A DNA stretch of 36,994 nucleotides. It comes from Ignavibacteria bacterium. GTDB lineage: Bacteria > Bacteroidota > Ignavibacteria > Kapaibacteriales > UBA2268. The notes below the pieces were generated by a model. The model was not told the origin of the DNA. It searched no databases and saw nothing but the letters and a program-made list of their open reading frames with translations. The stretch is taken from the NCBI GenBank assembly GCA_012522895.1, contig JAAYJM010000216.1:1-36994 (forward strand), given 5' to 3'. Positions 5,401 to 31,626 of this stretch are shown here, one piece after another (the stretch's first letter is position 1; every line of letters begins with the position of its first letter). Made by a program: the position numbers and the translations under genes.

Positions 5401-5764
5401 TTGCTTGTATTTCTGCGTCTGGCTTATGCTTTGAAAAAAAATAGCATAAATTGACAATGACTTTAACATTAAGCAAGGCAATGGGTTCAAGTTGCTCTTC
5501 TCTCTTTTTTTTCAAGTTTTTTGAAAAATAAAATGTTTGTCTAAGAAGTGAAGCAAGTTTTGAGCCAATGCTATGTTTATCAATCACAAAAACCAAGCGC
5601 GCAAAATGAGAAGGAAAAATTTGCTCTTCTTCTTTTGTCAATAATACTATTATTTCTTTTAAAAATGAATGTAACTTTATTACATTTTTGAAGTTAAGCC
5701 CGTCTGCCCTAAAAATTTCTTTGATTTCTTTATAGTAGTATTCAAGATTTTCTTTATTTAGCAT
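2444..5764 (-). CDS. Dna2-like nuclease-helicase (PD-(D/E)XK plus SF1 helicase)
   Basis: The 1106-aa protein probably acts in DNA end processing or replication repair. A Cas4/Dna2-type nuclease core lies near residues 330-400: GRLDLL with D346, VELKSGK with E362 and K364, then ITQATGYN. A superfamily 1B helicase follows: Walker A GPPGTGKT at 700-707, Walker B DEAS at 815-818, GDEKQLPAVV, the NRQARMH motif, ERFQGSERD and finally AISRARRQL. The nuclease-then-helicase order matches Dna2. The first 330 residues are not recognised. It is transcribed alone, divergent from the receiver-CheD gene. The known family supports a 5'-flap or end-resection role; a defence role cannot be excluded but no defence partners are adjacent. 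Confidence 0.83.
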   Translation of the reverse strand: MLNKENLEYYYKEIKEIFRADGLNFKNVIKLHSFLKEIIVLLTKEEEQIFPSHFARLVFVIDKHSIGSKLASLLRQTFYFSKNLKKKREEQLEPIALLNVKVIVNLCYFFSKHKPDAEIQAICKKYDDGHLHIAKKEKNRINIFNASIRRKISSEKSIGFDFLSEEFGSFQLYLNSKFYYLSKITKKGNLLNLIGVIKAEKSKTAYFTDPNSIIVLEPDILLDITEIAESVDFNFSFQISFFIKLFSKKDLSKELLLGSLINSLFDELLLNKNADFESAYNEALKVKPLSFFAIALQSKNNASYLKEKTQNQFEILKKQINKFNLTKFYIEPSFVSPIFGIQGRLDLLIEDAEDGHRKDLVELKSGKAPRKEIFYKNEDGKMVSTGCWSNHITQATGYNLLLDSIDVKRAGSSLILYSSDLDAPLRNVPNHFFLKQDFLKIRNLLIHHYELLETELPLFFDRKFVQSENIPKYTREAYFELLNRYENSNETLKEYLFEFTTFISKEIKIGKLGKDAGSSNHSAPWESSIEEKRLNNSLLANLKLNRELSNFDQLHLTFNIEGEEGNNSIFRKGDLVVLYKEYGKAEANPNIQQLFKSSIRFIDNRQLAISLRNKHIPADFFEEDATFILEGDSMESAAKALYSSVFELLSASEEKQQLLLGESQPQFGEIEKDLFPNLYKNQRDIIAKAIAARDYYLIQGPPGTGKTSVILKNIVNHLFHNSADNILLLAYTNRAVDEICTQLKKIDENFPFLRLGYKDNSNHLDRSISFIAESMDLRELFLLIKNTRVFVSTVSSALSNCEVFQIKKFNIAITDEASQILEPHLIGLLCRVERFIMIGDEKQLPAVVLQNRNNCEAKSELLKNIELHNLSDSLFERLLKIAKSKKWSCYDLINRQARMHKDIQELTNFLFYNNQIKLWRENPALSKSNTFFSKNSENFLESQLSSSRLIFINTKTENRAKANNAEARLIIEIIDLIKTKLGADFKEKSIGVVCMFRAQVSNVLKMLNQDLKENILIDTVERFQGSERDFIIISSAVHNSHYIQFVQSVVDIDGCKVDRKLNVAISRARRQLIFLGNEDVLRKSEIYKKMIDFIKEKGGFLDFQDY

Positions 5765-5772
5765 AAAATAAG

Positions 5773-5780
5773 TATATTTG
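5773..5780 (+). promoter_or_regulatory. Candidate Bacteroidota-type -7 element
   Basis: TATATTTG matches the TAnnTTTG -7 consensus known for Bacteroidota, in the 87-bp divergent gap about 70 bp before the receiver-CheD gene. No clear -33 TTG lies at the right distance, so this is weak support. Confidence 0.3.
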
Positions 5781-5851
5781 TAAAATGTAATTTGTTAAGT
5801 TAGCAAATTATAATAAATTGCTGGCAGTATAAAATAAAGTAAAAATAATCT

Positions 5852-6811
5852 ATGGCAAAAAGGAAAATTAAAGTATTAATAGTAGACGATCAAGTTTTAG
5901 TGCTTGACATATTAGCAAAAGGTCTATCTAGAGATCCTGGTATAGAAGTAGTAGGAACAGCCACCGATGGACAATTAGCACTAAATCAAATTCCACGCAT
6001 TCAGCCCGATGTAATAGTTTTAGATATGGAAATGCCGCGAATGAACGGCATACAATTCCTTCATAAGCTAATGCCAATCAATCCAATTCCAACAATCGTT
6101 CTAAGTGCGCTAACTCAAAAAGATTCAAGGATTACAAAAGAAGCATTTGAATTAGGGGCTGTAGACTTTTTACCCAAACCCTCGGGTGGCGCCAAAGCAT
6201 TGCCCACTCTCTTTGTTCAGCTTTGGACTAAAATTAGAATAGCAGCCACGCAAGACCTTAGCCATCTTAAAAAGACCTCTTTGCCAAGGACCTTGCCTTC
6301 AAATGAATTGGATAGACAAGCAAGAACAAACCAAAGCATTTTAGGTATGGGCGCCTTTGACGTTACAAATGAAAGAGATAGAATTTTAAAAATCTTTGCA
6401 CTCGGCTCTTGCATTGGGCTTGCCTTGTATTGTCCAAGCAAGCAGGTGATTGGTATGTCTCACGTCGTTCTTCCATCTTCTTCTACTGATGCGGCAAAAG
6501 CTAATAGTATGCCCGGGTATTTTGCCGATACTGCTGTTAATATAATGTTAGAAAAAATGCATGAGCAGGGCTGCACCAACGCAAGTATAGTTGCTAAACT
6601 TGCAGGGGGCGCGAAAACTAATGTCGATCTAGGTGATTATTTTGGTATCGGGCAAAGAAACGCAGTTGCTGTGAAAGCTACACTACTAAAAAAAGGAGTG
6701 AAAATATTAGCTGAAGACTTAGGAGGAACAATTTCCAGAACCATTTTCTCGCGTGTAGGAGATGCAAAGCTTTATCTTAGCCACCCGGACAAAGGAAATT
6801 GGGAACTCTGA
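5852..6811 (+). CDS. cheD: CheB-type receiver domain fused to CheD glutamine deamidase
   Basis: Chemotaxis-type fusion of 319 aa. Residues 1-125 form a receiver domain: acidic pair D12/D13, phosphoacceptor D58 in VLDMEMP, and K109 in LPKPSGG. The SALT and ELGAVDFLPKPSGG stretches resemble the CheB receiver more than CheY. A linker of about 35 residues follows. Residues 160-319 are CheD, which deamidates glutamines on chemoreceptors: ALGSCIGLALY with catalytic C187 and GMSHVVLP with H204. The 17-residue spacing equals C27-H44 of Thermotoga CheD. The position of the third residue, T21 there, appears to be I181 here. No CheB methylesterase domain is present and no other che gene is in the window. 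A stand-alone ATG start is used, with a long AT-rich leader. Confidence 0.88.
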   Translation: MAKRKIKVLIVDDQVLVLDILAKGLSRDPGIEVVGTATDGQLALNQIPRIQPDVIVLDMEMPRMNGIQFLHKLMPINPIPTIVLSALTQKDSRITKEAFELGAVDFLPKPSGGAKALPTLFVQLWTKIRIAATQDLSHLKKTSLPRTLPSNELDRQARTNQSILGMGAFDVTNERDRILKIFALGSCIGLALYCPSKQVIGMSHVVLPSSSTDAAKANSMPGYFADTAVNIMLEKMHEQGCTNASIVAKLAGGAKTNVDLGDYFGIGQRNAVAVKATLLKKGVKILAEDLGGTISRTIFSRVGDAKLYLSHPDKGNWEL

Positions 6812-11693: not shown

Positions 11694-12275
11694 ATGAAAA
11701 AAGCATTTTTTTTACTAGCATTGTTAGTAATTTTATTTACTAACGTTAGAGCATGCCCACCCGGATGGACTGAATCAGCGAGAGAAACCATTACATATAA
11801 TGGTTGCACTTATGAATATATCTATTGCTATGGTATTAATAATGGATACCATTGCATCGCCATTTCTGAAATCAGTGTAGTTTACGATCCTCCTTTATGC
11901 ACAGGCTTGACTTTTGAGTTAAACATGCAAAATATAACTGATAAAATTTTGATCCAAATTGCAACAGACTCAACAATACGTAATTGGGCTGGGTTTGCAG
12001 AAATTCCTAACTGCCCAAATGGGCTAATGTGTCTTATTAGAATGTATGATGCTATCTGCTATAACGGATGGTACACCTATACAAGGCTTAACAAAGACGG
12101 AACCACAACCATTGTCGAGTCAATGAATAAATGTGATGATAAAGTAAGAAGCTGTAGTGAAACTGTTACAATTTGTTGGGATGTGAGTTTGCAAGAATAT
12201 GTAATAATAAGAGTAGGTAGCAGCTTGGTAGGTCCCCCTTGCAAATGGCCTTGCCACACAAATTGCGAATACTAA
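11694..12275 (+). CDS. Cysteine-rich secreted protein
   Basis: The family is not recognised. The 193-aa product has a signal peptide (MKKAFFLLALLVILFTNVRA) and then a mature part opening with CPPGWTES. I count 14 cysteines after the signal, an even number that fits disulphide bonding outside the cytoplasm. Several lie in short pairs (CTYEYIYC, CPNGLMC, CKWPCHTNC). There is no T9SS domain or lipobox: Arg at -2 argues against lipidation. GAGG at 11681-11684 supports the ATG. The next gene, a T9SS propeller protein, follows 119 bp downstream in the same direction after a weak hairpin, so the two may be co-expressed. Confidence 0.68.
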   Translation: MKKAFFLLALLVILFTNVRACPPGWTESARETITYNGCTYEYIYCYGINNGYHCIAISEISVVYDPPLCTGLTFELNMQNITDKILIQIATDSTIRNWAGFAEIPNCPNGLMCLIRMYDAICYNGWYTYTRLNKDGTTTIVESMNKCDDKVRSCSETVTICWDVSLQEYVIIRVGSSLVGPPCKWPCHTNCEY

Positions 12276-12278
12276 AAA

Positions 12279-12299
12279 AGGTTTTTTGAGAAAAAACCT
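12279..12299 (+). terminator. Weak hairpin after cysteine-rich gene
   Basis: AGGTTTTTT-GAG-AAAAAACCT is a 9-bp stem with a 3-nt loop right after the stop codon. It is mostly A-T and has no long T-run, so termination may be partial. Confidence 0.5.
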
Positions 12300-12394
12300 G
12301 CCCATTTGTATTTCACATAAAAAACAAAAAAGTTGAAAATAATTAATGATTAATGAGTATACAACTTATATACCACTAAGCTAAAGGTAACACT

Positions 12395-13822
12395 ATGAAA
12401 AAATTAGTTTTCTTTTTTTTAATATTCTTGTCATATAACCTTTTTCCTCAAAGCTGGGAGTTAATGTATAAAGATAGTATTATGCAATATGACAATATTT
12501 ATCAAGACTACGGGAAATTAAATATAGAGGAGCTATTAATAAAAGGCGATTCCGTTATTTTTTTAAGAGCAAGGTCTGATTCTATTCTTCTGATATATGA
12601 TAAAAGTAAAAAAGAATTTTATCATATTTTAAAGCAAGATTTTTGGAAGGGACTTAAAAATGATACTTTGTATAACTTGTATAAAAAATCAGATATTCTT
12701 AATTTATTTTATGATTCTAAAGAGAATTGCTGGTTTAGTTGTGGAGATTGTATAATACAATTTACTCCAGATACAGCGTATATATATAGTGATATTTTTG
12801 TTAAAGAACTAAATAAAACTTGTAAAATAAGGCGGGGTGCCAACAGAACCATTAGAAAAATTAAAGAAGACAAAGCGGGTAATATTTGGTTTTATTTAAT
12901 TTCAGTTCTACAAGACACTGACACTACTTTACAAACGTATTCAATGCTTTGTAAGCATACCGGCAGTGGAATTGAGTCAGTCTTAATTTCATCGACATTT
13001 TATATGTTTGTTTCAAAATGTAATTTCGTTTTTGACGATCAAAATCGGGTTTGGTATGTTTATGGAGATTCTTGTTATATCATCAAAGATGATGTGGTTG
13101 AAAAAAAGTTTACCACTATTGATGCTTGGAAAGGTTATGGCAGTTTTTCAGACTTAGTGATGGATTCAAAAGGGAATTTTTTTGCTACGAATAATCTTTT
13201 ATTTCTATTTAAATATGATGGTGATACTTTGACTGTTGACAGAAGGTTGCGAGATATAGAAGTAGAAATTAGAAAAACAGGTGTTGGGCATTTGTATTGG
13301 ATGCGAATAGATAGCTTGGATAATATTTGGATAACTGGTCATTATTCCTGTTATTTGTATAAAATTGACACAGCTGGAGTTATAAGTGCTTACGAAACAC
13401 CTAAATTTGACACAACTGGAACTGATTGGTGCTATAAATCGTTGATGGAAATCGACAATGACGGAAAAATCTGGATACCAGCTCAAGGTATTGTCTTGGA
13501 AAGTTATGGCATTTACGTTTTCGACCCAGATTCAACTAAAACTGAAGTAGAAGAAAGGAAAGAAAGCGTTAGCAAGGATTTCCAAATCTTCCCCAATCCC
13601 GCTCAAAATGAAATAACTCTTTCCATTCCAGAAAATCAAAGTATATACTCAATCTCTATTTTTAATTCTCTCGGAATGGAAGTAAAACGGATTGAGCAAG
13701 CCAAAATAATAGGAAATAGCAAAATCACAATTTCAACAGCAGATTTCCCAAATGGCTTATATCATTGCTCCTTCATAAATCAAGCAGACAGAATAACGAA
13801 AAGTTTTGTAATATTGAGGTGA
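12395..13822 (+). CDS. Secreted beta-propeller protein with T9SS sorting domain
   Basis: The 475-aa product starts with signal peptide MKKLVFFFLIFLSYNLFPQ. The body carries repeated blades ending in D-x-x-x-N-x-W patterns: KEDKAGNIWFYL, DDQNRVWYVYG, DSLDNIWITGH and DNDGKIWIPA. This resembles the reg_prop/two-component-regulator propeller repeats of surface sensors, but no histidine kinase or transmembrane segment follows. The final 75 residues begin FPNPAQNEITLSI and end SFVILR, a T9SS type A sorting domain, so the protein is exported. The ligand is unknown. The codon use and AT-richness match the preceding cysteine-rich gene. Confidence 0.75.
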   Translation: MKKLVFFFLIFLSYNLFPQSWELMYKDSIMQYDNIYQDYGKLNIEELLIKGDSVIFLRARSDSILLIYDKSKKEFYHILKQDFWKGLKNDTLYNLYKKSDILNLFYDSKENCWFSCGDCIIQFTPDTAYIYSDIFVKELNKTCKIRRGANRTIRKIKEDKAGNIWFYLISVLQDTDTTLQTYSMLCKHTGSGIESVLISSTFYMFVSKCNFVFDDQNRVWYVYGDSCYIIKDDVVEKKFTTIDAWKGYGSFSDLVMDSKGNFFATNNLLFLFKYDGDTLTVDRRLRDIEVEIRKTGVGHLYWMRIDSLDNIWITGHYSCYLYKIDTAGVISAYETPKFDTTGTDWCYKSLMEIDNDGKIWIPAQGIVLESYGIYVFDPDSTKTEVEERKESVSKDFQIFPNPAQNEITLSIPENQSIYSISIFNSLGMEVKRIEQAKIIGNSKITISTADFPNGLYHCSFINQADRITKSFVILR

Positions 13823-16631: not shown

Positions 16632-17633
16632 ATGGCAATTAGAATAGGAATAAATGGTTTTGGTCGGATCGGCAAATTAGTTTTTCGTTTAGCTTCTTTA
16701 AGTCCAAATATTAAAGTCGTTCATATAAACGATAAAATGCCAATTGAGTTATTGGCTCATTTAATGAAATATGACAGCATTCACGGACAATTTGAGCATT
16801 CGATAAAGCATAATAAAAACTACATTTATTTGAATGATCAAAATATTTTAGTTAGCAATAATGAAACTCCGGCTGAAATAAATTGGAATAACGAAGTCGA
16901 TATTGCGGTCGAATCAAGCGGAAAATTTAAAATAAAAAAAGAATTGGAAGGGCATTTTAAAAGCGGCGTAAAGAAAGTAATTCTTAGCTGTCCATCGAAA
17001 GATAATTCTGTGGATAAAACGGTGGTATTTGGGGTGAATCATTTGGATCTATTGCCCTCGGATCTCATTATTTCTAATGGCTCTTGCACAACTAATTGTG
17101 TTTGCGTTATGCTGCAAGTCTTGAAAAATCAATTCGGAATAAAACGCTGTTTTATGAACACAGTCCATCCTTTTACAAATAATCAAAATCTCCAAGATGG
17201 CTTTCATAAAGACTTTCGGCGCGCCCGCTCCGCCTTTGCAAATATTATTCCTACAAGCACAAGCGCTGTGGAAACTACTAAAATCATATTCCCAGAGCTG
17301 AAAGATAGTTTTGATGGCTTTGCAACGCGGGTGCCTGTTCCGGATTGCTCTTATGTTGAGCTGAGCGCAGAGTTGAATTGCGATGTAACTGTGGAAGACG
17401 TTAACGCTGCTTTTCTTCACTATTCGCAAAACGATTTAAAGGGTTGCTTGGAATATAGCAGCGTCCCGCTTGTTAGCAGCGACATAACAAATAATTGCCA
17501 TTCAGCAATTTACGATTCGCTTTGCACCAAAGTATTGCTCGGCAATATGATTCAAATCATCGCCTGGTATGACAATGAAAGCGGATATTCTGCGAGAATT
17601 ATTGATTTAATTAATTTTTTATCGAAAATATGA
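16632..17633 (+). CDS. gapA: Glyceraldehyde-3-phosphate dehydrogenase, type I
   Basis: Catalyses the reversible oxidation and phosphorylation of glyceraldehyde-3-phosphate to 1,3-bisphosphoglycerate in glycolysis and gluconeogenesis. The 333-aa length is normal. The Rossmann motif GINGFGRIG starts at G6, with D34 (HINDK) at the position that favours NAD. The active-site SCTTN has C152, and H179 follows in TVHPFT with the standard spacing of 27. FHKDFRRARSAFANIIPTST is the phosphate-binding region, and WYDNESGYS is at the C-terminus. Its stop overlaps the next start in ATGA, which indicates translational coupling to the dikinase. The first gene of a three-gene operon; NAD preference is inferred from D34 only. 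Confidence 0.93.
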   Translation: MAIRIGINGFGRIGKLVFRLASLSPNIKVVHINDKMPIELLAHLMKYDSIHGQFEHSIKHNKNYIYLNDQNILVSNNETPAEINWNNEVDIAVESSGKFKIKKELEGHFKSGVKKVILSCPSKDNSVDKTVVFGVNHLDLLPSDLIISNGSCTTNCVCVMLQVLKNQFGIKRCFMNTVHPFTNNQNLQDGFHKDFRRARSAFANIIPTSTSAVETTKIIFPELKDSFDGFATRVPVPDCSYVELSAELNCDVTVEDVNAAFLHYSQNDLKGCLEYSSVPLVSSDITNNCHSAIYDSLCTKVLLGNMIQIIAWYDNESGYSARIIDLINFLSKI

Positions 17634-20600
17634 GTGAAATTATAAAATCCCAAGCTTTAGAAGTAAATTTATCTAAAACTAAAAACGTAGAATTTAAAAT
17701 CCCAGATGAGCATTTGTGGTTCCTTTCTCTTTCTGAAAAATACTGGGGTATTCACAAAAGAATGAAGGATTTTTTTACCGAGTTCCATCACCCCTACTCC
17801 AATAGAAAGGAAGTAATTGAACTTATTATTAACGTGTCTATTGGCGATTTTTGGGTCTATAAGGAAATAGAAGAAAAAGAAAGAGCTATATCAATTTTGC
17901 TTGATATTTTCAACAGTTTATTAAGTGAAAAATTGTCCGATGACCTTGCAAAGCATTTGGTATTTGTATATTTGGATTTTTTTAATAAAAATTTTAATGA
18001 CATAGCTCCCTTCGATTCCTTGCTTCATAAATATGTTGATATATTAGACAAAAGATTCCAAGATAATTATTTTGGATATTTAAGCAATATCGGATACTTC
18101 AAAAAGAGTTTGGAGAACGCTGCGGCATCGGAAAGCGTTGGCAAAGGCACTTTTCAATTTATGCAGAAGCTTGTTAAGGAAAATCTTAGATTTTGGGAAG
18201 ACTCGACCGACATAGAAAACTGGTATGATGGGGTAAAACCCAAAATGTCAAAAGATTATACCGAAGAAATAAAACCACTGGGAAAAGAATTTTTTTCACG
18301 CTATTACGAAGAACTTGAAAAGGCAAGCAACTGGAAAGAACTGTGCAACGTAGTTTTTACTTTCTCAGATATTATTGACGCTCTAAGAAAAAAGACCAAT
18401 GACTTTGAAAAGGTAACCGAGCAGTTTTCCTTCATTTTCTATCTGCTGCATTTGCCGGGCGTGATTTATCATCGCAACTATTTATTAGCTGATCTAAATC
18501 GTATAATCAAAAGAATTAGCAACGAGTTAGACGAAGCTCAGTGCATTGAAGCTATAGACGAGCTGTTTTATCTTTTTGCCGATTTTAAAGAAAGCCACAT
18601 AAGTTTTATTTTAGATTCCATTTTAGCATTAGGCAAGGAAATAATAAATACACATAATAAAAAATTAATTAACTACTATGAAAATAAGACAATAAGCTTT
18701 GGCTTCGTCTCGCCCGGACTTAGTTATTTGACTAACGATTGGGTGCTAAAAATAAATCCAAATCACATAAAAAATATTAGAGTTTGGTTAGAATTAATTG
18801 AACACGATCCAGAAACAATGGAAAAGTTACTTTCTGCTCTAATTATTAATTTAAGGATAGGCGGAATATTTATTTTTGATACTGACTTATTTCAAAAAGA
18901 TGTTACAAAACTGCTTAATTCAAAAATTTCTCCTATCTATAAACAAATCAAGCAGCTTACAAGAATTTTTCCGGTTTATTTTAATGAAATTGGTGCAGAA
19001 GGAGTTCTTCGTGATGTAACTACAAAAATAGATGAAATCTCGCATAGAAATGATAAATTAATTCACTTTTTACGCAAGCAAATCCATACCGAGGGAAATA
19101 ATTCTCACATTCAAATAACAGTTGAAATCATTAAATTTTGGTTCGATTTAGATAAGGAAAGATTAAAAAATATAGTGCCGGAAAATGTTTTTGAGTCAAT
19201 AGATGAAAATGGCATTTGGGTTAACGGTGTAAATTTCGTTTTAAATCAACTGTGCGAGCTTTGCGTATGCTCTTTAGATGAGCTTATAGAAAAAGATTTA
19301 AAGGATATTTCTGAGCTTATTGGCAAAGCCAAGCATTATAATAATAATGACTTACAAAGAGTTCATTTGATAATAGAACTATACCAGCTGCTTAAAGAAA
19401 AATATCTTTTTGACGCCACCGATATTGGGCAAATTATTAGAAGATACAATTTTTTTGAAAATCAAGACATAGAAACACTTGAAAAACATTTAGAAGAAAA
19501 AAACGACATAGAAGCATTGAAGCTGATTTTTTCTTTTATGGTGCGCCTAAACGACATTATTTTCGACCCCAAAATCAGCGAGGGCTGGGAAAGTATTTAT
19601 TATAAAAGGCACGTTGCTTTTGGCATTCCCTCTATGTATGGGCAGTATAAGGAAATAAAATTTGAAGCACTGGGACTTACTTTTCGACTTGAGCTAATTG
19701 CCTCTACTTTGGTGAGCAATATTATAAACAATGTTAAAACTGATTATTTTACTGCAAAAACTTTGAAAGACATCTCTATTGTAATTCAATTAGTTTTAGA
19801 AGGTTTGCAGCTCGACGGAATTTCAGATCAAGGCTTTAATTCAAATTTAAAAATGTTCCAATATAGCTTAACCTCCAGAAGTTTTACGATCAATCAATAT
19901 CTTAATATCTTCCAATTTATGGAGGTTAGCATAAAAGAAATTATAAATAAGTATTTTATTAGACCTTACGAGCAATTATTAAAAGTCATTGTGCCTCAAT
20001 ACATTGACGAGAGCGAGCAGCAAATCACCAAAAAGCAAATCCTCCAAAAATCAGAAATCTTTTATCGGGAGCTTCTTTCCTCTGCTTTTTTAATTCAATC
20101 CTTAGATAATTTTATTGGGAGAATACTTATTAATCTTCGCAAAATGGTGCGTTATTTAAGTGAAGATGAAATACAAAGTATGATGACATATGATCCAGAA
20201 ATGATAATAAGCACCCTGTATCAAAAATCTCCCTCTATGGATAATCCAGTATTTTTAGGTTCAAAAGCCTACTACTTAAAAAATTTACTGCTTAATAAAT
20301 TCCCAGTTCCACCGGGCTTTGTAATTACAACAGAAATTTTTAGACGCTTCGATACAATTTTAAAAGTCAACTCCTTGGAAACCGAGATTGACAATCTGAT
20401 TAAACTTCACATTTCGGAATTAGAAACGATAACGGGGAAAAAATATGGAGATCCAGCTAATCCCTTACTGCTCAGCGTTCGCTCTGGGGCTGCAATTTCC
20501 ATGCCCGGCGCAATGAATACTTTTCTTAATGTCGGACTTAATGATGAAATAACTGAGAATTTAAGCAAGCAATATAATTTTGGCTGGACTTCCTGGGATT

Positions 20601-21718
20601 GCTACCGCCGTTTGCTTCAAACATGGGGCATGTCTCACGGGCTAAATCGAAATGATTTTGACCAAATTATGGTAGATTACAAGAACAAATACGGCGTGAG
20701 GCAAAAAATTGGCTTTTCACCAGCAATAATGCGCGAAATTGCTTTTACATATAAACAATTACTTGTCGACAATAACGTTCACTTTGAAGAAAACCTTTTT
20801 TTGCAAATAAAAAAAGCAATTATGTCGGTATTCAGTTCTTGGAACACAGCGAGAGCAAAAGTGTATCGGGAACATCTGCAAATAGCAAATGAATGGGGAA
20901 CCGCGGTGATTGTCCAGCAAATGATATTCGGTAATCTGCACCACGAATCTGGCTCGGGAGTGCTATTCACTCACGACAGCCAAAGTAATTTAGCCGGGAT
21001 AAATTTAGCAGGCGATTTTTCATTCCTTAGCCAAGGAGAAGATATCGTGGCTGGTCTGGTAAGCACTTTGCCAATAAGTGAAAATCAAAGGAAAATGTAT
21101 TATAAGCAAAGCCAATTTTCTTTGGAAAGCGCATTTCCAAAAATTTATGCTAAATTGAAAGAAATTGCCCAAGAGCTAATTGATACACACGGATTTGGTC
21201 ATCAAGAAATTGAATTTACTTTTGAAACACCAGAGCCGGAGGACTTATACATTCTCCAAACAAGAGATATGGCAATTTTGAAGCGAGATAACATTGAATA
21301 TTTTGCCTACCCGGAAAAGAAAATGAAGCGTATCGGCTCTGGAATTGGAATCAGCAATAAGGTGCTGAATGGAGTGATTGTTTTCGATAAAGAAGATTTA
21401 GAATATTTAAAGAAAAATAGCCCAGATAAAAACGCTATTTTAGTTAGACCTGACACCGTGCCAGACGACATAGAAATGATTTTTGGATGCGAAGGACTTT
21501 TAACAAGTAAAGGTGGCGCAACTTCTCACGCCGCAGTTACAGCAGCCTCGCTCGGCAAGACCTGCGTTGTTAATTGTAACGATATGCTTGTTTTTGAAAA
21601 AGACAAAAAGTGCATAATCAGCAACAAGGTTTATCAGGTTTTCACTCCCATAGCAATTGATGGAAATAAAGGGATTGTCTACGAAGGCAATTATCCTATA
21701 AAAACTCAAGAATTATAG
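17630..21718 (+). CDS. PPDK-like dikinase lacking the PEP/pyruvate TIM barrel
   Basis: 1362 aa. Residues 1-870 are largely helical and not recognised. Residues 875-1220 form an ATP-grasp domain close to pyruvate phosphate dikinase: G877-K879, LSVRSGAAISMPGAMNT with R951, RAKVYREHLQIANEWGTAV, SGSGVLFT, GEDIVAGLVST, E1195 in QEIEF and Q1210 in ILQTRD. Then comes the swivelling phosphohistidine domain, GGATSHAAVTAASLGKTC, with H1300. The protein stops about 60 residues later, so the C-terminal TIM barrel that makes PEP from pyruvate is absent. The ATP half reaction and histidine phosphorylation look possible; the final acceptor is unknown, and could be bound by the N-terminal module or another protein. 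The gene overlaps gapA by four bases and precedes a second GAPDH by 30. Confidence 0.85.
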   Translation: MSEIIKSQALEVNLSKTKNVEFKIPDEHLWFLSLSEKYWGIHKRMKDFFTEFHHPYSNRKEVIELIINVSIGDFWVYKEIEEKERAISILLDIFNSLLSEKLSDDLAKHLVFVYLDFFNKNFNDIAPFDSLLHKYVDILDKRFQDNYFGYLSNIGYFKKSLENAAASESVGKGTFQFMQKLVKENLRFWEDSTDIENWYDGVKPKMSKDYTEEIKPLGKEFFSRYYEELEKASNWKELCNVVFTFSDIIDALRKKTNDFEKVTEQFSFIFYLLHLPGVIYHRNYLLADLNRIIKRISNELDEAQCIEAIDELFYLFADFKESHISFILDSILALGKEIINTHNKKLINYYENKTISFGFVSPGLSYLTNDWVLKINPNHIKNIRVWLELIEHDPETMEKLLSALIINLRIGGIFIFDTDLFQKDVTKLLNSKISPIYKQIKQLTRIFPVYFNEIGAEGVLRDVTTKIDEISHRNDKLIHFLRKQIHTEGNNSHIQITVEIIKFWFDLDKERLKNIVPENVFESIDENGIWVNGVNFVLNQLCELCVCSLDELIEKDLKDISELIGKAKHYNNNDLQRVHLIIELYQLLKEKYLFDATDIGQIIRRYNFFENQDIETLEKHLEEKNDIEALKLIFSFMVRLNDIIFDPKISEGWESIYYKRHVAFGIPSMYGQYKEIKFEALGLTFRLELIASTLVSNIINNVKTDYFTAKTLKDISIVIQLVLEGLQLDGISDQGFNSNLKMFQYSLTSRSFTINQYLNIFQFMEVSIKEIINKYFIRPYEQLLKVIVPQYIDESEQQITKKQILQKSEIFYRELLSSAFLIQSLDNFIGRILINLRKMVRYLSEDEIQSMMTYDPEMIISTLYQKSPSMDNPVFLGSKAYYLKNLLLNKFPVPPGFVITTEIFRRFDTILKVNSLETEIDNLIKLHISELETITGKKYGDPANPLLLSVRSGAAISMPGAMNTFLNVGLNDEITENLSKQYNFGWTSWDCYRRLLQTWGMSHGLNRNDFDQIMVDYKNKYGVRQKIGFSPAIMREIAFTYKQLLVDNNVHFEENLFLQIKKAIMSVFSSWNTARAKVYREHLQIANEWGTAVIVQQMIFGNLHHESGSGVLFTHDSQSNLAGINLAGDFSFLSQGEDIVAGLVSTLPISENQRKMYYKQSQFSLESAFPKIYAKLKEIAQELIDTHGFGHQEIEFTFETPEPEDLYILQTRDMAILKRDNIEYFAYPEKKMKRIGSGIGISNKVLNGVIVFDKEDLEYLKKNSPDKNAILVRPDTVPDDIEMIFGCEGLLTSKGGATSHAAVTAASLGKTCVVNCNDMLVFEKDKKCIISNKVYQVFTPIAIDGNKGIVYEGNYPIKTQEL

Positions 21719-21736
21719 TTATATTAGTATTTTTTT

Positions 21737-21741
21737 GGAGG
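21737..21741 (+). promoter_or_regulatory. Strong Shine-Dalgarno before second GAPDH
   Basis: GGAGG seven bases before the ATG at 21749. It is the strongest such site I noted in the window, where most genes have weak or no ribosome binding site. This suggests independent, high translation of this gene within the operon. Confidence 0.6.
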
Positions 21742-21748
21742 ACTTCTT

Positions 21749-23005
21749 ATGAATATATCTATTAAGGAAAAAAAGTTATTAGGTATCAACAGCTTAGGCA
21801 GAATTGGCAAGCTCTCGCTATGGTATCATCTTTATTCAAGATTTTTTGATGGAATTGTAATCAACCAAGGGCGGGAAGTCGGAAAAAGCTTAGATGACAT
21901 TATTCACTCTATCTCTTCCGATTCCTCTTATGGCTCGCTTAGCAGTTTTCTGAACGGTTATCACGGGAAAAGATGCAACATTGAAATTACTGACAGAGAT
22001 AATGGTTGCTTTACAATAGACGGTTTTCCGGTAAAAATGCTGACCAAAGAAAGAAATCCGCATAACATAAATTGGGGCGCCGAAGGAGTAAAAATCGTAG
22101 TCGATTGCACTGGCAAGTTTTTAGACCCCACTTTGCCTTCAAGCGAGCAAAAGCCAAGCATTTTAGGGCATTTGACTTCCGGGGCGCAAAAAGTGATTGC
22201 AAGCGCTCCTTTCAAGGTAAAGCACGCACCGTCTGATAATCTTGACGACTTTCCCACCCTTATTTATGGTATTAATCACATGAGCTATAATCCGCAGAAA
22301 AATCACGTGATTTCTGCAGCAAGCTGCACCACAACAGGCCTTGCGCACATGATTATGCCCTTGCTCGAGGACAAAGAAACAAACAATGTGCTAACGGCTT
22401 CAATGTCCACGGTTCACGCGGCGACAAACACCCAAAGCGTGCTTGATTCAGTTCCTTCAACTGGAACGGGAGATTTAAGAAAAAATAGATCTGTCTTAAA
22501 TAATATCATTCTTTCTTCAACAGGGGCGGCTAAAACCTTGGAAAAAGTAATTCCAGAGGTAATAAAATTTGGCTTTATGGCTGATTCTATTCGCATTCCC
22601 ACTAACACCGTTTCGCTAATCGCTCTTAATATTACTTTTAATTCAAGATTAAGCGATAGCGGGATGCCCTTTATTAATGCTGATTATATTAAAAATATTT
22701 ACAAAACTGCTGCTAATGGTTCGCAAAAAGATTTGCTCTATTATACAGAGCGGCAAAATGTTTCTCTTGATTTGATTGGCCTTCCAGCCGCAGTTGTAAT
22801 TGAGGCAAATGAAATTCATACAAGAACTGGCTTTTTACAAGTTCCACCTGAAGTTCTCGCTTCTATTGGAATTAATAATATCAATGAAGTAAATATTCCC
22901 GTTACTCACGCAAAGATTATGGGCTGGTATGATAACGAATACGGCAGCTATACTTATTGTCTTGGCAAGCTTACTGAATATGTTGCAAACCTTATGGAGT
23001 CTTAG
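21749..23005 (+). CDS. Divergent long-form glyceraldehyde-3-phosphate dehydrogenase
   Basis: A 418-aa GAPDH homologue, about 80 residues longer than the usual enzyme. Extra sequence lies near residues 40-80, in a proline-containing stretch near 130-180, and later. The Rossmann motif GINSLGRIG starts at G12, but the middle glycine is S15, and the cofactor-selecting Asp is replaced in VINQG (Q40), so NADP or relaxed use is possible. Catalytic C193 is in SAASCTTTG (normally SCTTN) and H223 in STVHAAT, 30 residues apart, not 27. The ending WYDNEYGSYTY is normal. Long GAPDH forms are known in Bacteroidota. It may serve the opposite direction (gluconeogenic) from gapA, or a related aldehyde-phosphate substrate. 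It is third in the operon. Confidence 0.87.
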   Translation: MNISIKEKKLLGINSLGRIGKLSLWYHLYSRFFDGIVINQGREVGKSLDDIIHSISSDSSYGSLSSFLNGYHGKRCNIEITDRDNGCFTIDGFPVKMLTKERNPHNINWGAEGVKIVVDCTGKFLDPTLPSSEQKPSILGHLTSGAQKVIASAPFKVKHAPSDNLDDFPTLIYGINHMSYNPQKNHVISAASCTTTGLAHMIMPLLEDKETNNVLTASMSTVHAATNTQSVLDSVPSTGTGDLRKNRSVLNNIILSSTGAAKTLEKVIPEVIKFGFMADSIRIPTNTVSLIALNITFNSRLSDSGMPFINADYIKNIYKTAANGSQKDLLYYTERQNVSLDLIGLPAAVVIEANEIHTRTGFLQVPPEVLASIGINNINEVNIPVTHAKIMGWYDNEYGSYTYCLGKLTEYVANLMES

Positions 23006-23126
23006 TTTTATAGTCAAGCAGAGATGCTTGAACTACTTGAGTTGTTATATTTTTATAGTCAAGCAGAGATGCTTGTCCTACTTAGAAATAGCGTTTTAGT
23101 AGGACAGGCATCCTTGCCTGTTTGAC
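23006..23126. repeat. Direct and inverted repeats after the GAPDH operon
   Basis: A 25-bp sequence starting TTTTATAGTCAAGCAGAG is repeated exactly at 23006-23030 and 23051-23075. The second copy continues into GTCCTACTTAG, and an inverted imperfect copy (AGTAGGACAGGCATCCTTGC onward) follows at 23098-23126, so the last two can form a long hairpin. It may end the operon transcript. A related arrangement lies at 25392-25446. Confidence 0.75.
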
Positions 23127-25487: not shown

Positions 25488-27824
25488 TTATATATTAGCC
25501 CTTCTTTTTTTTATTTCATTTAAACCAGTAAATATTATATCTTCATCTAAAACAATGTCGAATCCGGATTGCGGAACTCCTTTATTTGTCCTTAAACGTC
25601 TTAATACCTCGTTAAAAAGAAGTTCTGCTTCATCGAAACGATTTAAGTGCATTAAGGAATATGCTTTGAGATTGAGTGCATAAACTTGATTTGGCGCTTG
25701 TTCTAAAGATTTTTCTGCCCAAAAAAGAGCTTCCTCATACTGCCCTTGATTTCCAACGATTTGAGATAATGTAGAGCTTGCGCTTGCAAAAACCGATGGC
25801 GTCATCCCTCCTAATTCAATAGCAAAGCGGATAGCGTTTTCAGCTTCCTTATAAAGTCTCATATTCCCAAGCGTTTGCCCAAGCTGATACCAGGCATAAG
25901 CGTTTAATGGCTCCTCTTGAATGTGCTGCATTAATAGATCATAGTTCCTTCTAATTTTTTTGTCCATCTCCTCGCGGCTTTTATTATAGCCCAAATGCTC
26001 AATGATGATGTCAGAAAAGTCTATACTTTTCCCCGCCTCAAAAATTGAAGGAGCGATCTGCTCGTGAACTCTGCCCTCAAAGCGAATAGTTGGGAAGCCG
26101 AGATTTCTGAAAATCCTTGGGTATCCTCCGCGATGCATTTCAGTTGAGCCAGTAAGTTGCAAATGCTCGCTTTCGATAGTGCAGATGTATCCAGCAACAT
26201 GGTAAGGAGCATTAAGCAAAAGCTGCCTTATTTTCTTTGAACTTTCTTTTTCAATGCGTTCATCGGCATCAAGGTAAATTAACCAATCGCAAGTGCAGTG
26301 CTTTAAAGATTCGTTTCTTGCAGCAGCAAAATCCTTATTCCATACAAAATTATAGACTTTCGCGCCATAGCTCAATGCAATTTCTTTAGTTTTATCGCTT
26401 GAGCCAGTGTCAACTATTACTATCTCATCAACTATATCCTTAACGCTTTCTAAACAGCCAGGCAGCATTTCTTCTTCATTTTTAACAATCATACTAAGCG
26501 AAAGCAAATCCTTTTTGACGTCATTTCTTGTAATCTTTTCCAGGTTTTTTTGTGAAATTTTTAGCTCGCTTTCGTCTGTTTTATCAGTAAATTTATCTGC
26601 AAAAGCAGTATCGCTCTTCATTGTTTGTCTTACTTGATTGATAAAGCCTTTTATTTCAGGTCTATTCGGCTCAATCGCCCTTGCCTTTTCTAAAAGTTCT
26701 AAGGCATCTTTATAATTTTTTGAGATGTAAAAAACATTTGCCAGCCCGACCATGCAACTTGAATCATTTTGATTTGCGGCAAGTCCTTTTTCAAATTCAC
26801 TTTTAGCAAGTTTATGCTGATTCAAACCGATATAAGATTTGCCTAATCTAAAATGAAGCTGCTCTATTGGTAAATTATAATCACCAATAATTTGGGACAT
26901 CAAACTTGGCGAAAGCTGAGCTGCATGCATTTTCTGATAGAAATTTAGTGCTTCTTCATATTTTCGTAGCGCCGTATATGTTTCACCGAGAATGAAATTT
27001 GCAAAGCTCTGTATGGGAACGATTCTTAAAGACTCTGTTGCTCTTTGAATCGCCTTTTGATAATCTCCTTGTTGATAAGAAATTATTGCTCCGTAATTTA
27101 ACGCCTGCGGCTTGATTGTGCTGTTGTCGCTTGCAAGCTCAATAGCGATGGCAATATCCCTCTCCGCTTTACTTAAATCCTTTAAAGCTAAATATGTTTT
27201 TGCCCTTTGATAATAAGAATTTAAATCCTTTTCATTGTTTTTTATAGCTAAATCAAGCAGTTCAAGATTGCGTAACTGCTTTTTTTTCATCTGTTCTAAA
27301 TCGTGCGTGTATCCAAGGTGAAGGAACTGAATGTCGCTATTTTCTATTTTTAAATTAAGCTCTTGAATTGGGTCGATAATCTGCTCGTGTATTATGCCAT
27401 AAAAACGAATTTTTGGCTGAGAACGAAATAAACGGAGCAAGCTCGTTGAGTAAACATCAAATTTTCCATCTGCCCTTGTTGCCTCTGATACAACGTTAAT
27501 TAAAAAGCCACCAATATTTTTTTTGACCTTCTTTAATTTTGAAGTCAAAGCATCTGGATTAAGCAATCGCTCGTCAGCGTCAATGCTTAAAATCCAATCG
27601 GATTGAGCTTTTTCGAGTGCAAAATTCCTTGCTTTTGAGAAATCATTTTGCCAAGGAAAATTGAATACTTTGCAATTATATGATTTTGCTATTTCTACTG
27701 TTCTGTCGCTTGAGCCGGTGTCGACAAGAATTATTTCGTTTGCCACAGTTTTAATAGAATCAATGCAATCGGGCAAAAACTTTTCTTCATTTTTTGCTAT
27801 TATACAAACACTTAGAGTTTCCAT
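25488..27824 (-). CDS. Tandem-duplicated GT2 glycosyltransferase with TPR repeats
   Basis: A 778-aa soluble protein made of two similar halves. Each half has a GT-A family 2 glycosyltransferase (SVCIIAKNEE and LSMIVKNEE at the start, VDTGSSDRT / VDTGSSDKT, then the metal-binding DADER at D82/D84 and D519/D521, period about 437 residues) followed by tetratricopeptide repeats (for example YQRAKTYLALKDLSKAERDI and YAWYQLGQTLGNMRLYKEAE). Both catalytic halves keep their DxD motifs, so both may be active. Donor and acceptor are unknown. Such SunS-like or TPR-linked GT2 proteins modify proteins or polysaccharides. It is a single gene, convergent with tRNA-His and divergent from the Kgd-type gene. 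Confidence 0.88.
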   Translation of the reverse strand: METLSVCIIAKNEEKFLPDCIDSIKTVANEIILVDTGSSDRTVEIAKSYNCKVFNFPWQNDFSKARNFALEKAQSDWILSIDADERLLNPDALTSKLKKVKKNIGGFLINVVSEATRADGKFDVYSTSLLRLFRSQPKIRFYGIIHEQIIDPIQELNLKIENSDIQFLHLGYTHDLEQMKKKQLRNLELLDLAIKNNEKDLNSYYQRAKTYLALKDLSKAERDIAIAIELASDNSTIKPQALNYGAIISYQQGDYQKAIQRATESLRIVPIQSFANFILGETYTALRKYEEALNFYQKMHAAQLSPSLMSQIIGDYNLPIEQLHFRLGKSYIGLNQHKLAKSEFEKGLAANQNDSSCMVGLANVFYISKNYKDALELLEKARAIEPNRPEIKGFINQVRQTMKSDTAFADKFTDKTDESELKISQKNLEKITRNDVKKDLLSLSMIVKNEEEMLPGCLESVKDIVDEIVIVDTGSSDKTKEIALSYGAKVYNFVWNKDFAAARNESLKHCTCDWLIYLDADERIEKESSKKIRQLLLNAPYHVAGYICTIESEHLQLTGSTEMHRGGYPRIFRNLGFPTIRFEGRVHEQIAPSIFEAGKSIDFSDIIIEHLGYNKSREEMDKKIRRNYDLLMQHIQEEPLNAYAWYQLGQTLGNMRLYKEAENAIRFAIELGGMTPSVFASASSTLSQIVGNQGQYEEALFWAEKSLEQAPNQVYALNLKAYSLMHLNRFDEAELLFNEVLRRLRTNKGVPQSGFDIVLDEDIIFTGLNEIKKRRANI

Positions 27825-28101: not shown

Positions 28102-31100
28102 ATGCTTACACCGAATTTTGCCTTTGAAGAAGAACTTTTTTATAAATATTTAAGAGATGCCGAGTCAGTAAGCCCGGAATGGCGAGCATATTTCAAAAGG
28201 AAAGAAAGCGATTTCAGTGCCAAAGAAGAAAAGAAAGCACCGGCAAGCGAAGAAAAACTTAGCTTATCAGAAAGCGATGAGCTTCAGTCTCTTAGTCCAA
28301 TGCTGTCCCGGGTGGCAAGCAATATGGAAGAAAGCATTGAAATTCCCACCGCAACTTCATTTCGCGATATCCCAGTCAAAGCACTTGACGAAAATAGAAG
28401 GATTATCAATAAATACTTGCAAAAATTGAAGCGGCGCCGCATTTCCTTTACACACTTGCTTGCTTGGGCTATTGTGAAAGGGCTAATCAAATATCCTTTG
28501 CTTAATTCAGCTTTCACAAAAATTGACGGGAAGGCTCATCGCATTCTTCATAAATCAATAAATATTGGACTTGCAGTAGATATTGCCCGCAGCGATGGTA
28601 GTCGAATGCTGCTTGTTCCAAATATTAAAAACGCACAAAATCTTAATTTTTCAGATTTTATAGAAGAATACGACAGATTAATTGATAAAGCGAGAAATAA
28701 TAAAATTAGTCCAGACGATATGTTTGGAACTACTGTTACTTTGACAAACCCCGGAATGATTGGAACCACCTGCTCTTCTCCACGCTTGATGAAAGGACAG
28801 GGCTTAATTGTCGCAAGCGGCTCTATTGATTATCCCGTTGAATTTCAAGCTGTTAGACCAGATTTGCTGACTACTCTTGCCGTTTCAAAAGTGCTTACCA
28901 TTACAAACACTTATGACCATAGAATAATACAAGGGGCGGAATCCGCTGAATTCCTTGCCTATTTAAGCAAACTCCTTCTTGGGGCGGATTTGTTTTACGA
29001 TCAGATTTTTGCTATACTCCGCATTCCTTTTGAGCCGATTCGTTGGTCAAGCGATATAGCAAGCTCAAAAAATAAACTCTACGATGAGCAAGCAGCGATT
29101 GAAAAGGGCGCCCACGTTATGCTTATGATTAATGCTTACAGGGTGCGGGGCCATTTGCTTGCAAATATTAATCCCCTGGGCTTTGAATCATACTACTATC
29201 CCGAGCTTGACCCTGCTCACTATGGCTTTACAATCTGGGACTTGGATAGATATTTCCACGCCGATGATTCTTGGGATCAAAACGATTTACCCTTGCGTCA
29301 AATAATTGAGATACTGCGAGAAACCTACTGTGGCACCACTGGTTATGAATTTATGTATATTCAAAATCCAGAGAAAAAAGAGTGGATTAAAAGCAAGTTA
29401 GAACTCAAAGAAAATGCTCATAGTTTTTCAAAAGAAGAAAAAACTTCTTTTTTAAAAAAATTGATTGAAGCAGAGGAATTTGAAAATTTTCTGCATACAA
29501 AATTCATCGGCTCGAAGCGCTTTTCCCTTGAAGGGAGCGAATCTATGATTGTGATGCTCGATAAGCTGTTTCAACTTGCTGCCGATAATGATTTATCCGC
29601 AATCTCGCTCGGTATGGCTCACAGAGGCCGTTTGAACGTCCTTGCTAATATAATAGGAAAGGACTTGCAAACGATGTTTGCTGAATTTGACGGAGTTATT
29701 GACGCCGTAAATTACTTTGGCTCTGGCGATGTGAAATACCATTTAGGAGCAGATGCAATTTACAGCTCAGAAAATGGCAAGGAAATTCAGGTTGTTCTTT
29801 CTCCAAACCCAAGCCATCTCGAACTTGTAAATCCAGTAGTCGAGGGCGTTGCCCGCGCTTTGGACAATAAATATGAAGATCCAACTTACACAAAGACCTT
29901 GCCTATCCTTATTCACGGCGATGCAGCATTTTCCGGGCAGGGCATTGTTGCCGAAACGCTTAATCTTTCTGAGCTTGAAGGATACCGCACCGGCGGGACT
30001 ATTCACATTATTATCAATAATCAAATTGGCTTTACTACAACGGCAATAGACGCCCGCTCCACTGTTTATTCGACTGATATTGCTAAAATGATCCAAGTTC
30101 CAATTTTGCACGTCAACGGGCATAGCATAGAATCTGTTGTGAGTGCCGCTATTTTTGCTTTTGAATATAGGAAAAAATTCAATAATGATCTGATTATCGA
30201 TCTGCTTTGTTATAGAAAATATGGGCATAACGAAGCTGACGAGCCTTCCTACACTCAGCCTCTTCTTTACAAAAAAATAAAAAACATAGCGCCAGTGTCC
30301 AAAATATTTTCAGAAGAAATATTGAAAGAAGGCGTTATTGAAAAAGATTTTTATCAAAACTATATCCACTCTTTTCAAGAAAAATTAACAGAAATTTTTA
30401 ATAGCAGAAAAGCAAAGGAAATTGATTTTGAAGCACTATACAAGAAAAATGTAGATTTCGATTATAAGTCAGAAACAGCGGTTGAAGAGCCAATTTTAAA
30501 GAAAATTGCTGAAAAAATATCATATTTGCCAGAGCGCATAAATGCTCATAGCAAAGTGAAGCAGCTTTTTTCTCGCCGAGCAACAATGCTCGATTCCCCG
30601 CTTCCGGCGATAGATTGGGGTATGGCTGAGCTACTTGCCTTTGGCTCGATTTTGCTTGATGGACGAGAGATTCGTTTTTCCGGAGAGGATTCTCGGAGAG
30701 GCACTTTCAGTCACCGCCACGCGGTTGTTGTCGATATAAAAAATGAAAATATTTACATCCCGCTTAATAACATTGAGGAAAAACAAGGATTGCTGAGAAT
30801 TTTCGATAGCCCGCTCAGCGAACTTTCTATACTTGGCTTTGAGTATGGCTATAGCACTATTTCTAAAAATGGTTTGACGATTTGGGAGGCACAGTTTGGC
30901 GATTTTGCGAATATGGCTCAACCGATAATCGACCAATACATCGTTTGCGGAGAAGTGAAATGGGGAATAAGCTCAAACTTAGTGCTGCTGCTCCCTCATA
31001 GCTATGAAGGACAGGGGGCAGAGCATTCAAGCGCAAGATTGGAGCGTTTTCTTCAGCTTTGTGCCGACAACAACATCATCGTTGCAAATTTATCTACTCC

Positions 31101-31626
31101 AGCTCAATATTTTCACATTTTGAGAAGGCAGCTTCTTTTAGAAAAGAAAAAGCCGCTTGTCATTATGTCTCCAAAAAGCATTTTAAGGCATCAGCTCGCA
31201 GTTTCCTCTTTAAACGATTTCACGCAAAAGAGTTTTAAAACGATTATGGACGACGAAAGAATAAGCGATTACAAAAAAGTTAAAAAGCTGATTTTCTGCT
31301 CTGGAAAAATTTATTATGACTTGCTGCAAGCAAAGGAAAACGGAGAAAACATTGCAATAATAAGGATTGAGCAGCTTTATCCTTTCGATGAAAAATCTTT
31401 AAAAGAAATACTGAAAAAATACACAAAAATAAAAGAATATCTTTGGCTGCAGGAAGAACCGCAAAATCAAGGTGCTTGGAATTTTATTAACCCGATTTTA
31501 AGCGACTTACTTAACGCGAAAATAAAATACATTGGACGGAAGCAAAGCCCATCAACAGCAACAGGCTCTTTCATCGTCCACAATTTTGAGCAAGAGCAGA
31601 TAATTAAAGAAGCGCTAACCATCTAA
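28102..31626 (+). CDS. kgd: Single-chain 2-oxoglutarate decarboxylase/dehydrogenase E1 with succinyltransferase domain
   Basis: TCA-cycle enzyme of 1174 aa with the architecture of mycobacterial Kgd and corynebacterial OdhA. Residues 1-41 resemble the E1o N-terminal helix (YKYLRDAESVSPEWRAYF). A flexible Ser/Glu/Lys linker follows. Residues 85-320 form a dihydrolipoyl succinyltransferase catalytic domain with TYDHRIIQGAE (H273); Q277 stands where E2 enzymes usually have Asp, as in Kgd. Residues 330-1174 are thiamine-diphosphate E1: MAHRGRLNVLANI, SPNPSHLE, G606-DAAFSGQG and NNQIGFTT at 639-646. There is no lipoyl domain, so lipoyl groups must come from another E2 in trans. It is a single gene with a 277-bp upstream gap. 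Confidence 0.93.
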   Translation: MLTPNFAFEEELFYKYLRDAESVSPEWRAYFKRKESDFSAKEEKKAPASEEKLSLSESDELQSLSPMLSRVASNMEESIEIPTATSFRDIPVKALDENRRIINKYLQKLKRRRISFTHLLAWAIVKGLIKYPLLNSAFTKIDGKAHRILHKSINIGLAVDIARSDGSRMLLVPNIKNAQNLNFSDFIEEYDRLIDKARNNKISPDDMFGTTVTLTNPGMIGTTCSSPRLMKGQGLIVASGSIDYPVEFQAVRPDLLTTLAVSKVLTITNTYDHRIIQGAESAEFLAYLSKLLLGADLFYDQIFAILRIPFEPIRWSSDIASSKNKLYDEQAAIEKGAHVMLMINAYRVRGHLLANINPLGFESYYYPELDPAHYGFTIWDLDRYFHADDSWDQNDLPLRQIIEILRETYCGTTGYEFMYIQNPEKKEWIKSKLELKENAHSFSKEEKTSFLKKLIEAEEFENFLHTKFIGSKRFSLEGSESMIVMLDKLFQLAADNDLSAISLGMAHRGRLNVLANIIGKDLQTMFAEFDGVIDAVNYFGSGDVKYHLGADAIYSSENGKEIQVVLSPNPSHLELVNPVVEGVARALDNKYEDPTYTKTLPILIHGDAAFSGQGIVAETLNLSELEGYRTGGTIHIIINNQIGFTTTAIDARSTVYSTDIAKMIQVPILHVNGHSIESVVSAAIFAFEYRKKFNNDLIIDLLCYRKYGHNEADEPSYTQPLLYKKIKNIAPVSKIFSEEILKEGVIEKDFYQNYIHSFQEKLTEIFNSRKAKEIDFEALYKKNVDFDYKSETAVEEPILKKIAEKISYLPERINAHSKVKQLFSRRATMLDSPLPAIDWGMAELLAFGSILLDGREIRFSGEDSRRGTFSHRHAVVVDIKNENIYIPLNNIEEKQGLLRIFDSPLSELSILGFEYGYSTISKNGLTIWEAQFGDFANMAQPIIDQYIVCGEVKWGISSNLVLLLPHSYEGQGAEHSSARLERFLQLCADNNIIVANLSTPAQYFHILRRQLLLEKKKPLVIMSPKSILRHQLAVSSLNDFTQKSFKTIMDDERISDYKKVKKLIFCSGKIYYDLLQAKENGENIAIIRIEQLYPFDEKSLKEILKKYTKIKEYLWLQEEPQNQGAWNFINPILSDLLNAKIKYIGRKQSPSTATGSFIVHNFEQEQIIKEALTI

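Follow-up and report, generated by a model that had tools for sequence, protein, structure and literature searches.

A gene for a PPDK-type dikinase (DK) followed by a gene for a divergent GAPDH (GAPDH2), with another GAPDH gene (GAPDH1) in front of them in part of the loci, constitutes a conserved uncharacterised set of two or three genes in anaerobes of several phyla, which suggests an undescribed variant of the GAPDH step, itself among the best conserved in sugar metabolism. The set was recognised in the window, a DNA stretch of 36,994 nucleotides representing contig C156 of the 2.66 Mb draft genome of an Ignavibacteria bacterium (G000; GenBank GCA_012522895.1). We propose, as a serious possibility that falls somewhat short of a probable one, that DK and GAPDH2, accompanied by GAPDH1 in one subclade, act as a dedicated GAP/1,3-BPG/3PG module of anaerobes in which the acceptor of DK is 3PG and the pathway operates in the gluconeogenic direction. 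There is a real chance that this combination of a PPDK-family dikinase with GAPDH represents a new reaction of central metabolism.

The three open reading frames form a tight run on one strand (Table 1), as the original prediction had described, and the ATGA overlap between GAPDH1 and DK, the spacer of exactly 30 nt between DK and GAPDH2, and the GGAGG motif that it listed were all present in the sequence. Translational coupling of DK to GAPDH1 through the stop/start overlap is likely, and the same overlap (-4) was found at the GAPDH1/DK junction in four other loci (L054, L055, L059, and L070). A promoter scan gave no clear surplus of promoter-like sites over shuffled sequence, and the run may be called an operon on the strength of its spacing and conserved gene order. 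Right after GAPDH2, positions 23003–23120 carry a pair of direct repeats of 36 nt each (92% alike) together with an inverted repeat of 23 nt (83%) which is not of the T-tailed terminator type. A search of the window revealed no further copy of these repeats, which are possibly a mobile or REP-like element.

Table 1. Features of the GAPDH1–DK–GAPDH2 gene run (positions in the window; residues numbered in DK).
Feature	Positions	Strand	Description
GAPDH1	16632–17633	+	333 aa ORF, type I GAPDH
DK	17630–21718	+	1362 aa ORF, PPDK-type dikinase with new N-terminal domain
GAPDH2	21749–23005	+	418 aa ORF, divergent GAPDH
ATGA stop/start overlap GAPDH1/DK	17630–17633	+	GAPDH1 TGA overlaps DK start
Ribosome-binding site of GAPDH2 (GGAGG)	21737–21741	+	7 nt before ATG at 21749
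DK N-terminal domain	17630–20239	+	residues 1–870, predicted all-alpha, pLDDT 84
Conserved N-terminal stretch 1 of DK	18878–19111	+	residues 417–494, DTDLFQ..FPVYFNEIGAEG..HFLRKQ
Conserved N-terminal stretch 2 of DK	19595–19699	+	residues 656–690, KRHVAFGIPSMYG, low-pLDDT loop
ATP-grasp domain (PPDK_N) of DK	20255–21286	+	K879, R951, E1137, D1138, E1195, Q1210, R1212 invariant
Swivelling phosphohistidine domain (PEP-utilizers) of DK	21425–21625	+	TSH1300, codon 21527–21529

The DK protein combines the ATP-grasp domain (Pfam PPDK_N, residues 876–1219) and the swivelling His domain (PEP-utilizers, residues 1266–1332) of PPDK (EC 2.7.9.1; PDB 1kbl, 1dik), which is its best match in both sequence and fold. 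The NCBIfam score was 342 bits against PPDK (TIGR01828) versus 77 bits against PEP synthase, and Foldseek superimposed the model of residues 300–1362 on the PPDK structure 1kbl with an rmsd of 2.9 and an E-value of 4e-30. The active-site residues are intact: the ATP-grasp residues K22, R92, E323, Q335, and R337 of PPDK have their equivalents in K879, R951, E1195, Q1210, and R1212 of DK, the counterpart of TSH455 is T1298-S1299-H1300, and all of these, together with E1137, D1138, and E1193, are invariant in the alignment of 27 DKs. The difference from PPDK is that the C-terminal PEP/pyruvate TIM barrel (PF02896) gave no match in the Pfam and NCBIfam searches, DK ending past the His domain, while a new helical domain of about 870 residues is placed in front. 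The original prediction had spoken of a truncated dikinase; the barrel is indeed absent, but with this N-terminal extension the description does not hold, and full-length relatives share the architecture. This conserved full-length family rules out DK being a truncated or degraded PPDK. An ATP-grasp domain and a His domain joined to another acceptor domain are also found in rifampin phosphotransferase and other acceptor-swapped dikinases, but DK has no RIF-type acceptor domain, its domain order is unlike theirs, and its genomic context is unrelated.

The N-terminal domain of DK is a putative acceptor domain. Its 870 residues gave no significant match in Pfam, PDB profile, or Foldseek searches, and the same searches did not relate the domain to any protein that binds 3PG or BPG; Foldseek returned weak alpha-solenoid-like matches only. 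The highest conservation within this domain falls in the two stretches listed in Table 1, which are rich in Arg, Lys, His, Asp, and Glu and are predicted with low confidence, which is frequently the case for flexible loops of active sites. When the conserved loops were modelled by AlphaFold together with the C-terminal half of the protein, including the His domain, they stayed disordered.

Both GAPDHs contain the Gp_dh_N and Gp_dh_C domains (Pfam) and have in common with type I phosphorylating GAPDH (GapA and its NADP-using variants) the fold as well as the catalytic residues Cys, His, and Arg. GAPDH1 is a type I enzyme with Rossmann and catalytic domains and equivalents of Cys149, His176, Arg231, and Asp32; its catalytic Cys152 is located within the SNGSCTTNC motif, the NAD-type Asp32 is retained in the 'IND' motif, the S-loop has Gly-Phe in place of Leu-Pro, and the score against TIGR01534 (354 bits) is slightly below the curated cut-off of 367. 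GAPDH2 retains Cys193 (codon 22325–22327), His223, and Arg282 as equivalents of Cys149, His176, and Arg231, but differs from type I GAPDH in the loss of Asp32, in two insertions, and in its position on a very long branch of the GAPDH tree. The Asp32 position is occupied by Gln40 in the window protein and by Val, Ile, Cys, Ala, or Gln across the aligned GAPDH2 rows, followed by Gly-Arg, and because of this replacement GAPDH2 is, judging by its sequence, probably NADP(H)-dependent. One of the insertions adds four residues to the S-loop, and the other carries an invariant HTRTGF motif (22817–22834). GAPDH2 scored 284 bits against TIGR01534, below the equivalog cut-off of 367, and matched no curated NCBIfam equivalog. 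A cofactor theme for the two GAPDHs, one with Asp32 and the other without it, is plausible.

Scanning of the genome collection (one genome per species) with a single DK protein as the query gave no match, and a profile based on a two-row alignment of the N-terminal domain was needed. The scan with this profile revealed 27 loci in Bacteroidales, Cloacimonadota, a Calditrichales record, a Clostridia MAG, and Acetobacterium paludosum. In 17 of these loci GAPDH2 follows DK directly on the same strand, after a gap of 19–219 nt, and in 12 GAPDH1 immediately precedes DK; in G060 the DK–GAPDH2 junction lies on another contig. Four further DK–GAPDH2 pairs came from the Bacteroidales sample and nine from the class of G071 (Clostridia-class), and in Cloacimonadota the pair was present in all 20 loci examined, with the full triad in one of them. 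Altogether, the adjacency was observed in 51 loci besides the window, in which the identity of DK to the window protein ranges from 37 to 70%. Many of the surveyed genomes are MAGs, and contig ends hide some neighbours.

The DK–GAPDH2 pair is thus conserved across phyla, outside close relatives, and the functional link of DK with GAPDH that had been predicted is strongly supported by gene order and co-occurrence. With respect to the predicted three-gene unit, the DK–GAPDH2 part stood, whereas GAPDH1 proved not to be a necessary member, since most clusters hold DK and GAPDH2 only. Within the window's own family, the presence of DK and GAPDH2 in just one of the 60 relatives searched, with the genes unlinked there, might suggest chance neighbours or a single-lineage artefact; however, the identical order in 51 loci of Cloacimonadota, Bacteroidales, and the Clostridia-class lineage, with no other shared neighbours, refutes this explanation and makes its probability practically negligible. 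A third conserved neighbour was not found around DK–GAPDH2, and the other neighbours differ between distant lineages. LepA is located beside DK in five loci and looks incidental, and plasmids yielded ordinary PPDK-type matches only. In one Bacteroidales locus (L127), a HydE-like radical SAM maturase is encoded immediately before DK (5452–6537) and a flavodiiron-type flavoprotein after GAPDH2 (12109–13341).

The two genes also co-occur at the genome level. Among 295 Bacteroidales genomes, DK was found in 25 (8%) and GAPDH2 (called at E <= 1e-60) in 14, all of which are within the 25 (hypergeometric P of 1.4e-17, with shared ancestry ignored). GAPDH2 is present in 26 of the 27 DK genomes of the first set, the exception being Acetobacterium. 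DK was detected in 50 of 125 Cloacimonadota genomes (40%) and in 16 of 391 genomes of the class of G071 (4%). Four genomes (G022, G065, G072, and G076) carry GAPDH2 unlinked to DK. DK can act with other partners, since GAPDH2 is not found near DK in A. paludosum (L069), which has one ordinary GAPDH in addition to DK, and in three loci from the class of G071 (L151, L152, and L154). An ordinary GAPDH gene in the opposite orientation is located within 16–7865 nt of DK in 8 of the 11 Bacteroidales DK loci lacking GAPDH2, and nine of these 11 genomes (G130, G157, G209, G235, G254, G256, G277, G325, and G345) encode an extra GAPDH of 483–522 aa, which we take to be possibly of the PRK08289 type and which may substitute for GAPDH2.

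Linkage of three independent types with different GAPDHs (GAPDH1, GAPDH2, and ordinary GAPDH), together with the weak alpha-solenoid-like matches of the helical domain, could also mean that DK serves GAPDH as a regulator or structural partner, its helical domain binding GAPDH and its phosphohistidine relay phosphorylating or switching it. We consider such a role rather improbable, given that the DK and GAPDH2 genes are unlinked in the four genomes named above, that Acetobacterium combines DK with a single ordinary GAPDH, and that the top N-terminal conservation is concentrated in Arg/Lys/His-rich loops, which would be more typical of a ligand pocket than of a binding face. If DK acts chemically at the 3PG/1,3-BPG/GAP node, the pattern is accounted for no less well than by the switch put forward in the original prediction.

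In the proposed module, DK would move phosphate from ATP onto His1300 with the release of AMP, its Pi/PPi chemistry following that of PPDK, and the swivelling His domain would hand the phosphate to an acceptor held in the helical N-terminal domain. The acceptor would most likely be the carboxyl group of 3PG (3PG + ATP + Pi <-> 1,3-BPG + AMP + PPi), and GAPDH2, probably using NADP(H), would then interconvert 1,3-BPG and GAP. The sum of these reactions, 3PG + ATP + NADPH -> GAP + AMP + PPi + NADP+, would represent a gluconeogenic route around PGK that is strongly driven and makes PPi as well. The domain architecture, the intact active site, the linkage across phyla, and the horizontal transfer are results of computation; the acceptor, the choice between Pi and water, the cofactor, and the direction of the DK–GAPDH2 pair are what we infer here. 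That DK is a '3-phosphoglycerate, phosphate dikinase', forming or using 1,3-BPG by AMP/PPi chemistry for a dedicated NADPH-type GAPDH within a PPi-linked GAP–3PG segment of uncultured anaerobes, is a real possibility, though less likely than not.

The 3PG proposal draws on rare neighbours which, suggestively, touch 3PG or its immediate relatives. In L146, genes for glycerate kinase and a GntP-family permease are located just upstream of DK–GAPDH2 on the same strand, while in L077 and L142 a phosphoglycerate-dehydrogenase-like gene, with scores below the PGDH equivalog cut-off, is found 220–232 nt downstream of GAPDH2; neighbours of this kind occur in three loci only, two of which are possibly related. 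It is unlikely that DK acts instead on another C3 compound (glycerate, glyceraldehyde, dihydroxyacetone, or a related polyol) with GAPDH merely handling the product. The novelty of the N-terminal domain would permit any small acceptor, and dikinases with swapped acceptor domains do use unrelated acceptors, as in the case of rifampin phosphotransferase, which was also a Foldseek match; however, a dedicated glycerate kinase is already present beside DK in L146, and sugar or polyol genes are not conserved around the module.

The direction of the proposed reaction can likewise be questioned, as the same chemistry could run in reverse during sugar fermentation, with GAPDH2 making 1,3-BPG and DK converting it, with AMP and PPi, to 3PG, ATP, and Pi, so that PPi would be turned into ATP in a PPDK-like manner. 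We regard this as quite unlikely, since the glycerate kinase, permease, and phosphoglycerate dehydrogenase neighbours suggest the entry of 3PG rather than its exit, and NADP-type GAPDHs more usually work in the reductive direction. The points in its favour are the PPDK-like ATP-grasp domain of DK and the PPi economy of Cloacimonadota, for which the use of PPDK rather than pyruvate kinase (PMC13082233), as well as of PPi-PFK and HppA (PMC8542988), has been reported, so that PPi chemistry would fit these bacteria.

Under the 3PG proposal, DK would share its acceptor with PGK, to which no homology was found. As a general rule DK does not replace PGK, which is present in 25 of the 27 DK genomes, nor does it replace PPDK, whose canonical form is co-resident in 40 of 42 DK genomes, including G000 (a 409-aa open frame on C205); since both enzymes coexist with DK, it is a simple substitute for neither. 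A divergent PGK (about 250–285 bits, about 390–455 aa) is the second or the only PGK found in seven DK genomes (G061, G066, G070, G073, G076, G078, and G079).

A recent review names just two known variations of the lower trunk of glycolysis, GAPN and GAPOR (PMC8100219), which are also given as the known variations at the GAP–3PG step in PMC12965863. Like the proposed module, they provide alternative chemistry at this step, but both skip 1,3-BPG, and a dikinase acting on 3PG or 1,3-BPG is absent from the lists in these two papers. With DK, a conserved phosphotransferase that is driven by ATP and linked to GAPDH, a third variation would join them if the proposal is true. Should DK be a dikinase that forms PPi, it would be relevant as well to the source of PPi for glycolysis in anaerobes, a question still unsettled in Clostridium thermocellum (PMC8863071), a species outside the DK survey. 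A literature search, with subscription papers and preprints outside its coverage, found no published description of DK or of the DK–GAPDH cluster.

Among the 60 relatives, only G022 contains a full-length DK (47% identity) and GAPDH2 (54%). In this genome DK spans contigs C30 and C88 and has plsY-like and permease-like neighbours, while GAPDH2 is located on C74, where its neighbours are a nusB-like gene and a gene for a large T9SS-type protein (all names by sequence reading); an ordinary GAPDH was not found in this assembly, which is 91% complete. Three GAPDH genes are present in G000, namely GAPDH1, GAPDH2, and an ordinary one on C112. The DK and GAPDH2 trees contain the same main groups and broadly agree. 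The window DK groups with those of Cloacimonas sp. SDB (70%) and a Salinivirgaceae bacterium (69%) and not with that of G022, and the nearest genomes for GAPDH1 and GAPDH2 of the window are the same as for DK. The genes of the window were transferred horizontally, and gain of the triad as one piece is the simplest reading. The GAPDH1s encoded upstream of DK form a monophyletic clade with support of 100/99; GAPDH1 is a later addition to the DK–GAPDH2 core, in one subclade only.

Two other genes of the window encode multidomain proteins. Positions 28102–31626 encode a 1174-aa protein in which a 2-oxoacid dehydrogenase acyltransferase (E2) domain is joined to 2-oxoglutarate dehydrogenase E1, a fusion of the kind known from actinobacterial OdhA/KGD. 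On the minus strand, positions 25488–27824 encode a 778-aa protein with two glycosyltransferase-2 domains and many TPR repeats between them, whose top NCBIfam match is a SunS-type S-glycosyltransferase with a score under its cut-off.
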